Positions 45,192 through 52,229 of a stretch of DNA of 64,000 nt are shown piece after piece. The translations under genes and the position numbers were made by a program. How positions within the stretch are numbered: position 1 is the first letter of the stretch; each line of letters starts with the position of its first letter. Below the pieces are notes generated by a model. That model did not search any database and had not been told where the DNA came from. It saw only the letters and a list, made by a program, of their open reading frames with translations. Source of the DNA: Leptolyngbyaceae cyanobacterium C42_A2020_001 (GTDB lineage: Bacteria; Cyanobacteriota; Cyanobacteriia; Leptolyngbyales; Leptolyngbyaceae); the NCBI GenBank assembly GCA_015272515.1, contig JACYLN010000123.1:1-64000 (forward strand), given 5' to 3'.

Positions 45192-46487
45192 ATGCAGGTA
45201 TCTCCTGAGAAAAACATAAACGCCGACACTCCTTTGCAGCTCTTGCTGTTCGTAGACAAGCGCCCTAGTTCGAGGGAGCAAGTTCGGCAGGTTCGTAGTG
45301 CCTTGAAAGAGCTAAAAGAAGAATGCGATTTTGAAGTTCAATTCATTGACGTAACTGAACAGCCGTATTTAGCTGAGTATTTTCGGTTAGTTGCCACACC
45401 TGCCTTGATCAAAATTCATCCAGAACCGAGGCAAACGCTTGCCGGGAGCAATCTGGTACAACAACTAGAGCAATGGTGGCCCCAGTGGCAACGTTCCGTT
45501 GCAGAGTACTTAGAAAAAACCAGCCAATCTTTACCAGAAGACAACATAGCTACGGAGAAAGTTTTGTTGGCGATGGCAAATCAAACTCAGCGAGAAGAAA
45601 TAGGGTTGGGCATTGCTAATACAACGCAGCCTTCCTTAGAAATTACATCTACCAATATGAGCGATCGCCCAGAAACGCCGTCTCTCGTAAAATCCGTCTC
45701 CTATTCGGCGGAACAAATCCAGCTTTCCGACGAAATCTTTCGTTTACGGCAGGAAAAAGAAGAACTGCAACACCAACTCCAGTTCAAAGATCAGATCATT
45801 TCCATGCTGGCGCATGATTTGCGAAACCCTCTTACCGCCGCATCGATCGCGCTCGAAACCCTAGAGATGGGCTACAACCCCAAAGATGGCTCAGAGTCGC
45901 GGCTCACTCCTGCTCTCACTTTGCAGTTACTCAAACACGCCCGCACCCAAACCAGGGTCATTGATCGCATGATTACAGATATCCTGCAAGCGGCGCGAGG
46001 CACCGGAGCCGAACTGCGAATTCAACCAGAAAAGCTAAACATGGGCAAGTTATGCCTGGACGTATTAGAGCATTTGAAAGACCGCTTTCAGGCAAAGTCG
46101 CTGCACGTTGACAAAGACATTCCCTCAGACCTGCCAAACGTTTTAGCCGATCAAGAACGCATTCGTCAGGTAATTGTCAACTTGCTAGACAACGCCATTA
46201 AATACACCCCTGTTGGGGGCACCATTCAACTTTCAGCCCTACACCGCACCACCCAAAAAATTCAAATTAGCGTATGCGACAACGGTCCTGGGATTCCTAT
46301 TGAGAACCAGGAACACATTTTCGAGGAACGTTATCGCCTCAAGCGAGATGAAGACAAAGATGGCTATGGCATTGGTTTGTCTCTCTGCCAACGCATTATT
46401 CGAGCACACTACGGGCGCATCTGGGTAGACTCTACCGCCAATCAGGGAAGTTGTTTTCACTTTACCCTTCCCGTGTTTCAAGGTTAG
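45192..46487 (+). CDS. sasA: circadian clock-associated sensor kinase SasA
   Basis: SasA binds KaiC through an N-terminal KaiB-like thioredoxin-fold domain and passes phosphate to RpaA, driving circadian transcription. Here the 431-residue protein has the KaiB-like domain at about residues 14-105 ([24 protein letters not shown] and [14 protein letters not shown]), a coiled coil, HisKA with His208 in [12 protein letters not shown], and HATPase with [22 protein letters not shown] and [12 protein letters not shown] lies six bases before ATG 45192. No kai genes are in the window. Its TAG stop overlaps the YqiA-like gene's TAA stop on the opposite strand by four bases. Confidence 0.92.
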
Positions 46488-48350: not shown

Positions 48351-48821
48351 CTAAAACGGCGCATCCATGCGATCGCGCTTCCCACCCCGTTGTTTAATCA
48401 CCTCATTGAGTTTCTGGCGTTGCTCTGCTGTCAGCACTTCTCGAATTGCCAGCATACTTTCCATCCGGGTATCTCCCAACTTCTGCTTTAAAGATTGAAG
48501 CTGGTCAAACTTTTGGCGCAGTTGATCGGTAGAGGCATTCCCTGCCATCAATTGTTTTAATTCTTGTTGTGCCTGTCGAACTGCCTGCCGTTGCTCAGTT
48601 AAGCGAGGCTCGTAGCGGCTGCGAATCTCTCGAATCCTCTGCACCTGTTCCGAACTCAGGTTGAGTGCTTTTAGCCAATCGGCACGCTCAGAACGACGTT
48701 GAGCTTGGCGCAGCGGGAATTGAACATTGGGGTTTGCCAGAACGATCGCGTCGGTCAAGCCTACCCCCCCTCCAGTTAAAAGGAGTAGAGCCGCGATCGC
48801 AGCAATCGAACGAACAGACAT
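48351..48821 (-). CDS. Spy/CpxP-like periplasmic protein
   Basis: A 156-residue protein with a signal peptide (about residues 1-25, AIAALLLLTGGGVGL) and a helical, Arg/Gln/Glu-rich mature domain. The LSSEQVQRIREIRSRYEPRLTEQ and LTAEQRQKLNEVIKQ segments are the two LTxxQ-type motifs of the Spy/CpxP/CnrX family. GGAG lies a few bases upstream of the start. It is the third gene of a sigma - anti-sigma - Spy-like operon, 38 bases after the anti-sigma gene. Spy-like proteins act as periplasmic chaperones or metal/stress sensors; here a sensor role is suggested by the context. Confidence 0.86.
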   Translation of the reverse strand: MSVRSIAAIAALLLLTGGGVGLTDAIVLANPNVQFPLRQAQRRSERADWLKALNLSSEQVQRIREIRSRYEPRLTEQRQAVRQAQQELKQLMAGNASTDQLRQKFDQLQSLKQKLGDTRMESMLAIREVLTAEQRQKLNEVIKQRGGKRDRMDAPF

Positions 48822-48859
48822 GGGTTGAATCTCCAAAAAATCAGGTGAAATCAAACGAA

Positions 48860-49252
48860 TTAATTAACGGGGGGTTCATCCGTTAGAGGAAGTAGTTCCT
48901 CCGTTTCGCTGGGTGGTTGTTCGGCAAGGTTACCCTGCCACGTACTTTCAATGAAGGTTTCTAGCTCTGCAAGTTCCGCGTCTGTCGGCTGCTGACGTGG
49001 TATCCACGCTTGATAGCCAACAATGGTTGCCACAAATCCTGCCGCGATCGCAGAGGGTAACAACCAGGCAACTCGGCGGGAAGGACGCGATCGCTGGGCG
49101 ATCAGCGGTTCACTCAGCCCAATTGCTTGTGGTGTATCATCAATCACAGCAAGGATACGGTTCTCCAAATCTGCGGCAGCGGGGGGAACAGTTGGACAAT
49201 TTTGCTGCAAAAAATTGGTTAAGTGATGGTCATCTTCAGGAAACGAGTTCAT
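48860..49252 (-). CDS. putative membrane anti-sigma factor
   Basis: A 130-residue protein with a cytoplasmic N-terminal region (about residues 1-58), one membrane segment (VAWLLPSAIAAGFVATIVGY, about 62-80) and a short acidic periplasmic tail. The position immediately behind an ECF sigma gene, with a four-base ATGA overlap, argues strongly for an anti-sigma factor. I see no HCC zinc-finger anti-sigma motif, so it belongs to a non-ZAS class. The acidic tail would face the Spy-like protein in the periplasm. Confidence 0.78.
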   Translation of the reverse strand: MNSFPEDDHHLTNFLQQNCPTVPPAAADLENRILAVIDDTPQAIGLSEPLIAQRSRPSRRVAWLLPSAIAAGFVATIVGYQAWIPRQQPTDAELAELETFIESTWQGNLAEQPPSETEELLPLTDEPPVN

Positions 49253-49833
49253 AGTTGGACTCCTTCTGTTTCTAAAAACTGGCGCATGGCAGCGCGGGCG
49301 TGAAATAAGCGAGATTTTACAGTTCCAAGTGGAATTTCTAAGATTTCAGCAATGTCTTTTTGAGGAACTTCTTCCAGGTCATGCAGCACCAATACCGTGC
49401 GATGGTCAAAGCTGAGATGCTCTAATCCTCGCTGTACCAGGTCTTGATAGTGCAGATGCATGACATCCGGAGCATCTTGTTGGGTAGAGGTATGAGTTGT
49501 GAGCCGTTGAAGTTGCGATCGCCCTTTTGCCGCCGCCTGCCGGTAATCTGCTGCCACATTCCAGGCGATGCGGTAGAGCCAGGTAGAAAATTTGGCTGAT
49601 TGCCGAAACTTAGGCAATCCTCTCCAGGCACGTAAGAAAACCTCCTGTACCAAATCATCCAACACAGAACCATCGCAAAGCTGGTAAAGAATCGCTCTTA
49701 CCCGTTGCTGATGCCGTCGATAAAGCGATCGGAAGCTTTGAGTATCTCCCTGAAGACTTTGCTGCACCAGCCTACTGTCATCATTTTCAGAATGGCTACC
49801 GTCTGACACTGTTTGCACCACAAACACCTGCAA
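49249..49833 (-). CDS. ECF-family RNA polymerase sigma factor
   Basis: A 194-residue group IV (ECF) sigma factor. Region 2 (SFRSLYRRHQQRVRAILYQLCDGSVLDDLVQEVFLRAW) has the core-binding and -10 contacts, and region 4 (VLVLHDLEEVPQKDIAEILEIPLGTVKSRLFHARAAMRQFL) carries the -35 HTH. The TTG start at 49833 is supported by GGAGG six bases upstream; a GTG at 49827 is the alternative. It heads the operon with the anti-sigma and Spy-like genes. The ECF subgroup and its regulon are not determined. Confidence 0.92.
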   Translation of the reverse strand: MQVFVVQTVSDGSHSENDDSRLVQQSLQGDTQSFRSLYRRHQQRVRAILYQLCDGSVLDDLVQEVFLRAWRGLPKFRQSAKFSTWLYRIAWNVAADYRQAAAKGRSQLQRLTTHTSTQQDAPDVMHLHYQDLVQRGLEHLSFDHRTVLVLHDLEEVPQKDIAEILEIPLGTVKSRLFHARAAMRQFLETEGVQL

Positions 49834-50008
49834 AACGATCCTCCACCCGGTTAGTTAATCACAAACTTAGACCCAATGACTCCACAAAAGGTTCATTGAC
49901 CAGCGTTGGAAATTTGAGAAAGACGGGAATACTGAAGAAAGACGCGTTCCTGAAGCGAACACGGTAGAGTAAACCTATCAATTACTGGATCTATTTATCA
50001 CGCTGTCC

Positions 50009-51131: not shown

Positions 51132-52229
51132 GTGGTTGAATCGAATGGAAACGACTGTCAAGTCACAATTCTGGAGAAAACCTGCCGGATTAGTATTCCG
51201 CCCGTTTTTACCGTAAAGAAGGCATTGGAGTTTAAGCAAAGTTTCCAACAAGCCTGTCAAAACAATCCAGACCTGACCCATGTTTCACTAGATTTTAGCG
51301 AAACAAAATTCATGGACAGTAGTGGGATTGGAGCATTGGTTGCTAGCCGCAAGTTAGCTCAAAAACAAGGGTTTGAATTGGTTTTACAAAACGTTTCACA
51401 GCAGGTTTTGTCTGCCCTTGCCCTTGCCGATCTTGATAAGTTTTTTGTGATTGAACAAGCTCCACCCGCGCCAAAAACTTCCACCTCAACGGCGGCAGCA
51501 AATGCATCGAGCGATCGCCTCCCCAGAGGAACAGCAGCATCCCTAAGTTCGCCTTCTGCAAAGCTGGTGCCCAAGCGATTCAGAAACATGGTGAAGTCTG
51601 AGGAGCAACCGTTTATCACTCATCCATCCGTGAAGTCTGTGCCAAAACGCGTTATGGATGTAGTAGGCGCGTTAATCGGTTTGGCAATTACGGCAGTCTT
51701 GTTCCCTTTCATTGCGATCGCCATTAAGCTTGACAGTCGCGGACCCATTTTCTTTGGACAGGTGCGCTGTTCACAAATGGGTAAACGCTTCAAAATGTGG
51801 AAGTTTCGTTCTATGTGTACCGATGCCGAAGCGAAAAAACATCTGGTGCAAAACGAAGCCGAAGGAGCCATCTTTAAAGCTAAGAATGACCCCCGAATTA
51901 CTCGTGTCGGTCGCATCTTGCGAAAGACCAGTTTGGATGAATTACCCCAATTTTGGAATGTGTTGAAAGGCGAGATGAGCCTGGTTGGCACTCGTCCTCC
52001 CACACCAGACGAAGTGGAGAAGTATGAAATTTTGCAATGGCAACGGCTCGACATTAAACCTGGAATGACAGGTGAATGGCAGGTGAACGGACGCTCTTCT
52101 GTGAAAAACTTTGAAGACATCGTTCGCCTCGACTTGAAGTATCAAGAAAACTGGAGCCTCAAATACGATGTTGAATTGATCTTCAAAACTATTTGGGTCA
52201 TCTTCAACAAAAACTCTGGTGCTATGTAA
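51132..52229 (+). CDS. STAS domain - polyprenyl-phosphate sugar transferase fusion
   Basis: A 365-residue two-domain protein. Residues 1-105 form a STAS (anti-sigma-factor antagonist-like) domain: VSLDFSETKFMDSSGIGALVASRKLA, where the serine in MDSSGIG is the phosphorylation site in SpoIIAA-type proteins. A Ser/Ala/Pro-rich linker (about 108-150) leads to a bacterial sugar transferase domain: one membrane segment (DVVGALIGLAITAVLFPFIAIAI), the KMWKFRSM motif, LRKTSLDELPQFWNVLKGEMSLVGTRPP and GMTGEWQVNGRSS. Such enzymes attach the first sugar-phosphate to undecaprenyl phosphate for exopolysaccharide synthesis. The fusion suggests that initiation is switched by partner binding or phosphorylation. 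The start is GTG 51132. Confidence 0.88.
   Translation: MVESNGNDCQVTILEKTCRISIPPVFTVKKALEFKQSFQQACQNNPDLTHVSLDFSETKFMDSSGIGALVASRKLAQKQGFELVLQNVSQQVLSALALADLDKFFVIEQAPPAPKTSTSTAAANASSDRLPRGTAASLSSPSAKLVPKRFRNMVKSEEQPFITHPSVKSVPKRVMDVVGALIGLAITAVLFPFIAIAIKLDSRGPIFFGQVRCSQMGKRFKMWKFRSMCTDAEAKKHLVQNEAEGAIFKAKNDPRITRVGRILRKTSLDELPQFWNVLKGEMSLVGTRPPTPDEVEKYEILQWQRLDIKPGMTGEWQVNGRSSVKNFEDIVRLDLKYQENWSLKYDVELIFKTIWVIFNKNSGAM

Follow-up and report, generated by a model that had tools for sequence, protein, structure and literature searches.

A cyanobacterial operon for an ECF sigma factor, a membrane anti-sigma factor and a Spy-like protein, with a predicted role in envelope stress

Introduction

The classical functional relative of the operon described here is CnrYXH of Cupriavidus metallidurans pMOL28, in which an ECF sigma factor works with a membrane anti-sigma factor and with CnrX, a periplasmic protein whose Ni/Co site is formed by the histidine ligands H42, H46 and H119. 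In E. coli, the theme of Spy, tripartite efflux and a protease runs through the Bae and Cpx regulons. A third precedent is the CirYZ-spy operon of Phocaeicola vulgatus, in which deletion of the anti-sigma gene raises itself and spy, and which is induced in colitis (PMC13114119).

The SigH-type sigma factors of cyanobacteria belong to group 3 (ECF) and include Sll0856 of Synechocystis and Tlr0317 of Thermosynechococcus; their function has been called unclear (PMC2758279). In Synechocystis, sigH shows a late rise in heat and its mutant tolerated all the conditions tried (PMC3264485), while sigH goes up about 1.6-1.9-fold in ethanol (PMC3564720) and its transcript falls to 0.30 with copper (PMC4182526). 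The SigH mentioned in one further Synechocystis paper is the Mycobacterium protein and was set aside. In the open-access literature we found no description of the downstream anti-sigma factor, Spy-like gene, promoter or regulon of a SigH-type sigma factor, nor of sll0857 and sll0858, and subscription journals may contain an earlier one.

Little is known about the way in which cyanobacteria detect damage to the periplasm or the outer membrane. The operon analysed here lies in a window of 64,000 nucleotides from Leptolyngbyaceae cyanobacterium C42_A2020_001, the whole stretch that was studied, and an earlier note on that sequence had suggested that it could be an independent cyanobacterial counterpart of CnrYXH, serving metal or envelope stress. 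We consider it likely that the three genes form a conserved, autoregulated envelope-stress ECF system of SigH type, for which a mechanism and a regulon can be predicted.

Organization of the operon

The operon consists of three minus-strand genes and their promoter, with the following features:

49867..49895, minus strand: ECF-type promoter of the operon, TGAACCTTT-N14-GTCTAA (-35 and -10), from a phylogenetic footprint and a whole-genome pattern search
49249..49833, minus strand: ECF sigma factor, probably SigH-type, with regions 2 and 4 and a TTG start (NF009171, Pfam)
48860..49252, minus strand: membrane anti-sigma factor with a single span, from a family that Pfam does not model (linkage to the sigma gene, hydropathy)
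49136..49231, minus strand: predicted sigma-binding part of the anti-sigma factor, residues 8-17 and 29-39 (AlphaFold2, conservation)
49004..49072, minus strand: transmembrane segment of the anti-sigma factor, about residues 61-83 (hydropathy 1.91; model helix 65-83)
48926..48982, minus strand: conserved helix of the predicted periplasmic tail of the anti-sigma factor, residues 91-109, motif LExFxExxW (AlphaFold2, conservation)
48351..48821, minus strand: exported, helical Spy-like protein that begins at ATG and has a signal peptide at about residues 1-29 (PF07813, PF13801)

A Shine-Dalgarno sequence, GGAGG, lies 6 nt upstream of the TTG start of the sigma gene. The three genes, the ATGA shared by the sigma stop and the anti-sigma start (49249-49252) and the gap of 38 nt between the anti-sigma and Spy-like genes were all found where the earlier note had placed them; the promoter is an addition to its account.

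Two other genes of the window are recorded here for their own sake. One, at 51132-52229 on the plus strand, encodes a protein that joins a STAS domain to a bacterial sugar transferase (PF01740 and PF02397), which looks like an unusual combination, and the other, at 45192-46487 on the plus strand, encodes a KaiB-domain histidine kinase (SasA-type clock output kinase).

Distribution in cyanobacteria

The conservation of the trio was evaluated in an even class-wide sample of 116 cyanobacterial genomes from 33 families. An intact sigma gene is present in 64 of them, in one copy each, and one more genome has a truncated copy. With a profile built from 54 members and a threshold of E up to 1e-8, the anti-sigma family was detected in exactly these 64 genomes, directly behind the sigma gene in every one (64/64) and nowhere else, the next best match having an E value of 2.7e-5; in one genome (G111) the pair is divided between two contig ends. 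The four-base overlap (-4) between sigma and anti-sigma genes is found at 108 of the 115 distinct loci. Such recurrence of linkage and overlap is far beyond chance.

Iterated profiles place a Spy-like gene directly after the anti-sigma gene in 57 of the 64 sigma-positive genomes, so that the trio is present in 22 of the 33 families, and strong Spy homologues occur in only 4 of the 51 sigma-less genomes. The combination proposed in the earlier note is thus genuine and conserved across cyanobacteria. The note had also named the separation of the Spy-like gene from the other two in neighbouring genomes as an observation that would speak against it; this holds for a minority, namely the seven sigma-positive genomes without a linked Spy-like gene, all of one genus (g24), and two Chamaesiphon among the named loci, in which no Spy-like gene adjoins the sigma and anti-sigma genes. 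Since these organisms keep the anti-sigma factor, and since its tail motif persists in g24, the Spy-like protein is not obligatory for signalling.

Three of the sampled genomes bear on the age of the system: G013 and G047, which we take to be Gloeobacter violaceus and G. kilaueensis, and G094, presumably Anthocerotibacter. If the Gloeobacter identities are right, that genus carries the trio alongside thylakoid-bearing lineages; given vertical inheritance, the trio would then have arisen before the thylakoid-less and thylakoid-bearing groups parted and would be as old as the cyanobacteria themselves.

The sigma factor

The first gene encodes a protein of about 190 residues in which Pfam recognizes region 2 (Sigma70_r2, residues 37-101) and region 4 (r4_2, residues 132-183), while region 3 is absent, as expected of an ECF (group 3/4) sigma factor. 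It matches NCBIfam NF009171 (PRK12518) with 290 bits, the cut-off being 208, and it is the only sigma of this type in the window genome. Two further ECF sigma factors are encoded there: one is followed directly by a zf-HC2 protein and is taken as SigG-SapG, and the protein downstream of the other is read from its sequence as RskA-like.

The relation to SigH rests on Thermosynechococcus. The named records of this genus carry the trio, and its genomes encode just two short ECF sigma factors, the trio sigma and another that shares 68% identity with the SigG-like sigma encoded in the window genome. Since the sigma table published for Thermosynechococcus contains only SigG and SigH (PMC2758279), the trio sigma would be the SigH-type one by elimination, and it is probably orthologous to the group formed by Sll0856 and Tlr0317.

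The anti-sigma factor

The anti-sigma factor matches no Pfam family, and 27 of the 54 family members score weakly, under the cut-off, against NF052375 ("anti-sigma factor"). Both properties attributed to it in the earlier note hold: there is one hydrophobic segment, and the zinc-finger motif is absent. More precisely, the window protein lacks Hx3Cx2C/zf-HC2 and none of the 54 members has such a Pfam match, so that it falls outside the zinc-bearing class I domains. Comparison with solved structures by sequence revealed no relation.

In the AlphaFold2 model, the N-terminus forms two short helices (residues 8-17 and 29-39) with a proline-rich loop between them, at a pLDDT of about 92. This region has the motif LxxFL...PxxPP...LE; in the family alignment F14 is invariant, and L11, L15, P23, L29 and E30 are conserved at 91-98%. 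The membrane helix (65-83) is followed by the tail helix (91-109), with a pLDDT of about 91 for residues 91-100 and with L97, E98, F100 and W105 conserved at 74-83%. The model thus has the general shape of CnrY (two short helices, one span, a periplasmic helix), and no sequence relation to that protein was found.

Some lineages have variants of this plan. In five loci that appear to belong to the deepest-branching, Gloeobacterales-like lineages (L059, L065, L068, L069 and L071), the tail ends in FAVDPxTxLYxVR[FLIM] and has no LExFxExxW, and the anti-sigma and Spy-like genes overlap by 14-17 nt. Two of them, both of family f33, repeat the N-terminal sigma-binding motif, four times in L068 (3988-4581) and twice in L069 (3813-4259), as if one anti-sigma factor could clasp several sigma factors or bind one more tightly. 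A single frame of 327 residues that joins the anti-sigma factor to the Spy-like protein (L130) was set aside: the joining part resembles intergenic DNA and the genome is a low-coverage MAG, so the frame is probably an error and possibly a fusion.

The Spy-like protein

The third protein exceeds the cut-offs of both PF07813 (LTXXQ) and PF13801 (Metal_resist), and its family profile matches E. coli Spy (1.3e-11), CpxP (8.5e-4) and ZraP (2e-3), with no match to CnrX. The AlphaFold2 model is a four-helix hairpin (pLDDT 84, core 97-98). Its best full-length matches in Foldseek and VIA-align include ZraP, CpxP, CnrX and NccX, interspersed with generic helical bundles; because of these bundles, a Z near 10 is not decisive for the fold on its own. 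Superposition on CnrX aligns about 105 residues at 2.6-3.4 A. Sequence and model together assign the protein to the Spy/CpxP/ZraP (LTXXQ) family and, as judged by sequence, its nearest relative is E. coli Spy and not CnrX.

The window protein contains neither histidine nor cysteine, the family conserves neither, and no alignment column exceeds 27% His; a metal site of the CnrX type was consequently rejected. The metal-sensing idea of the earlier note finds no support, since the protein is nearest to Spy and has no His or Cys, and copper lowers the Synechocystis sigH transcript (PMC4182526).

Related Spy-like genes occur in other settings. One locus (L163, G022:C1:283000-294500) holds a cluster of three long proteins (334-392 residues) that match the Spy-like profile. 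In five others (L157, L158, L161, L162 and L166), which are sigma-less genomes or unlinked paralogues, histidine kinase or response regulator genes adjoin the Spy-like gene, an arrangement that would be, by analogy, that of CpxP.

Promoter and predicted regulon

The sigma gene is preceded by a conserved sequence of ECF type, with the consensus TGAACCTTT-N14-GTCT(A/T)A. The form TGAAC-N18-GTCT was found in 92 of 119 distinct upstream regions, in 91 of them with a spacer of exactly 18, where 0.1 is expected, and the inclusion of lineage variants raises the count to 115 of 119, against 3.5 expected. Expected counts come from Markov-resampled sequence; in two resampling runs the expectation for the strict promoter was 0.6 (spacers 18-24) and 0.08 (spacer 18). 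One variant belongs to family f23, in which the -10 element preceding the sigma gene reads GTCAAA, as it also does at several of the family's second Spy-like genes. A conserved ECF-type promoter before the sigma gene is the mark of an autoregulated ECF operon, and the sigma factor itself would be the one to use it.

The regulon was explored by whole-genome pattern searches against a reversed-pattern control. Across 39 genomes belonging to the family of the window, 38 strict sites were found, against 0 in the control. Classification by profile and by reading of the loci assigned them as follows:

sigma operon: 17 of 38
second, unlinked Spy-like gene (about 150 residues, LTXXQ): 14 of 38
MacA-type adaptor: 2 of 38, with a MacB permease seen downstream of one
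RND adaptor with an AcrB-type pump behind it: 1 of 38
S41/CtpA-type protease, named from sequence: 1 of 38
small exported protein: 1 of 38
no class given: 2 of 38, one at a contig end

Across the class, the strict promoter gave 18 sites against 2 in the control, and all but one are in sigma-positive genomes. In the window genome, TGAACTTTT...GTCTAA stands 60 nt before the ATG of the second Spy-like gene, and a degenerate site, TGAACCAAT...GTCTAA, which is not significant on its own, is associated with macAB; a strict site at C15:19461 has no gene behind it and was treated as chance. The looser pattern TGAACY-N17-GTCTNA, which picks up the macAB site, gave 12 matches in that genome against 9 in the control, so most of these are noise, and only those with a counterpart in relatives were retained.

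A strict site precedes the second Spy-like gene in roughly half of the sigma-positive genomes that were examined and in 1 of the 13 without the sigma (p = 0.013, or 3e-4 with variants, values that are rough given hand counts and related genomes). In one genome with no detected sigma (L262, G034:C59), the second Spy-like gene still has a strict site in front of it, and the congener G048 does have the sigma; either recent loss of the sigma gene or an assembly gap would account for this. The occurrence of the promoter before the operon and before genes for a second Spy-like protein, efflux adaptors and a CtpA-type protease leads us to predict an autoregulated envelope-stress regulon, which favours the envelope-stress option of the earlier note.

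Proposed mechanism and alternative readings

Genes, linkage, promoter and its recurrence before the targets can be read in the DNA, and on them a mechanism may be proposed. At rest, the two short helices at the N-terminus of the anti-sigma factor would clasp the sigma factor; periplasmic stress, the predicted inducing signal, would pass through the single membrane span and the conserved tail helix and free the sigma factor. Once free, it would use TGAACCTTT-N14-GTCTWA promoters to transcribe its own operon, the gene for the second Spy-like protein and those for tripartite efflux adaptors (MacAB, RND), as well as a CtpA-type protease gene in at least one relative. The linked Spy-like protein would be a chaperone-type periplasmic output and possibly, with a chance of about one half, also a CpxP-like feedback partner that contacts the tail of the anti-sigma factor. 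The trio would then probably be a general cyanobacterial alarm for envelope damage and not a metal sensor. The Synechocystis data fit envelope stress weakly better than metal, only if SigH is the orthologue, and the tolerance of the sigH mutant counts against the envelope-stress reading.

The role of the third gene is the point at which the closest alternative departs from this mechanism: the Spy-like protein would be output only, a co-transcribed chaperone, and the anti-sigma factor would sense alone or via proteolysis. The second, unlinked Spy-like gene has the same promoter, g24 and Chamaesiphon keep the sigma and anti-sigma genes without a linked Spy-like gene (g24 with the tail motif), and CirYZ-spy has been described as a sigma/anti-sigma pair with a co-transcribed chaperone (PMC13114119). 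However, the linkage of the Spy-like gene to the anti-sigma gene is kept in 22 families, no such linkage was found for the second Spy-like gene, some Spy-like paralogues adjoin histidine kinases, as CpxP does, and the tail helix is conserved. We give output alone slightly less than an even chance, and the choice between the Spy-like protein as a sensor and as output only is about evenly balanced.

It is improbable that the promoter is read by another sigma factor (SigG or group 2), with the trio as one target among others. An AAC in the -35 element is common to ECF promoters and the window genome has two more ECF sigma factors, but the promoter precedes the trio sigma's own operon in nearly all genomes, and its strict sites are nearly confined to genomes with that sigma, whereas SigG is present in all the strains analysed (PMC2758279); the single second-Spy site among the 13 sigma-negative genomes points the same way. 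A metal sensor like CnrYXH, in which the Spy-like protein would release the anti-sigma tail on binding a metal ion, is very unlikely in spite of the same three functional parts, the CnrX fold match, the PF13801 ("heavy-metal resistance") assignment and the RND adaptor among the predicted targets of a relative, given a protein with no His or Cys and a family that conserves neither, a profile that prefers Spy (hhalign probability to CnrX 1.5%), no linked metal pump and the decrease of sigH with copper.

Beyond the preferred reading of an autoregulated envelope-stress system, a broader one is offered tentatively, as somewhat more doubtful than not: the system would descend from the common ancestor of all oxygenic cyanobacteria, an undescribed anti-sigma family would read periplasmic folding through a Spy-like chaperone on its tail helix, and the core regulon would be Spy and tripartite efflux. 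The trio supplies a defined promoter and a predicted regulon, brings in an anti-sigma family that Pfam does not model and points to candidate partners, and the SigH-type sigma factors, long known without a clear role, gain a concrete candidate function.

Comparison with known systems

As far as the open literature shows, the trio in cyanobacteria is new, and so are its promoter, the family of its anti-sigma factor and the regulon predicted for it. The anti-sigma gene directly downstream of an ECF sigma gene is shared with cyanobacterial SigG-SapG, which differs in its sigma factor (SigG is 32% identical to the trio sigma), in the zf-HC2 domain of the putative anti-sigma factor behind it in the window genome and in having no Spy gene. 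The closest sequence match of the Spy-like protein is with E. coli Spy/CpxP, and the predicted regulon shares its theme with BaeSR/CpxAR; control in E. coli is exerted by two-component systems and not by an ECF sigma factor.

CnrYXH resembles the trio in its ECF sigma factor (27% identity), in a single-span anti-sigma factor with two short helices, as far as the trio model predicts them, and in a periplasmic partner of the same fold. In contrast, its genes run in the order Y-X-H and not sigma, anti-sigma, Spy-like, CnrY and CnrX have no detectable sequence relation to the corresponding trio proteins, its His-based metal site is absent from the trio, and no efflux genes are linked to the latter; the independence from CnrYXH suggested in the earlier note is therefore borne out. 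A non-cyanobacterial contig of Chitinivibrionales (L148) carries, one after another, an ECF sigma gene, a gene with a weak match to the anti-sigma factor and a Spy-like gene. The layout is thus not unique to the trio, since this contig and CirYZ-spy have the same order, the latter with a co-transcribed Spy-like chaperone in a different phylum and with a likeness to the trio that rests on gene order.
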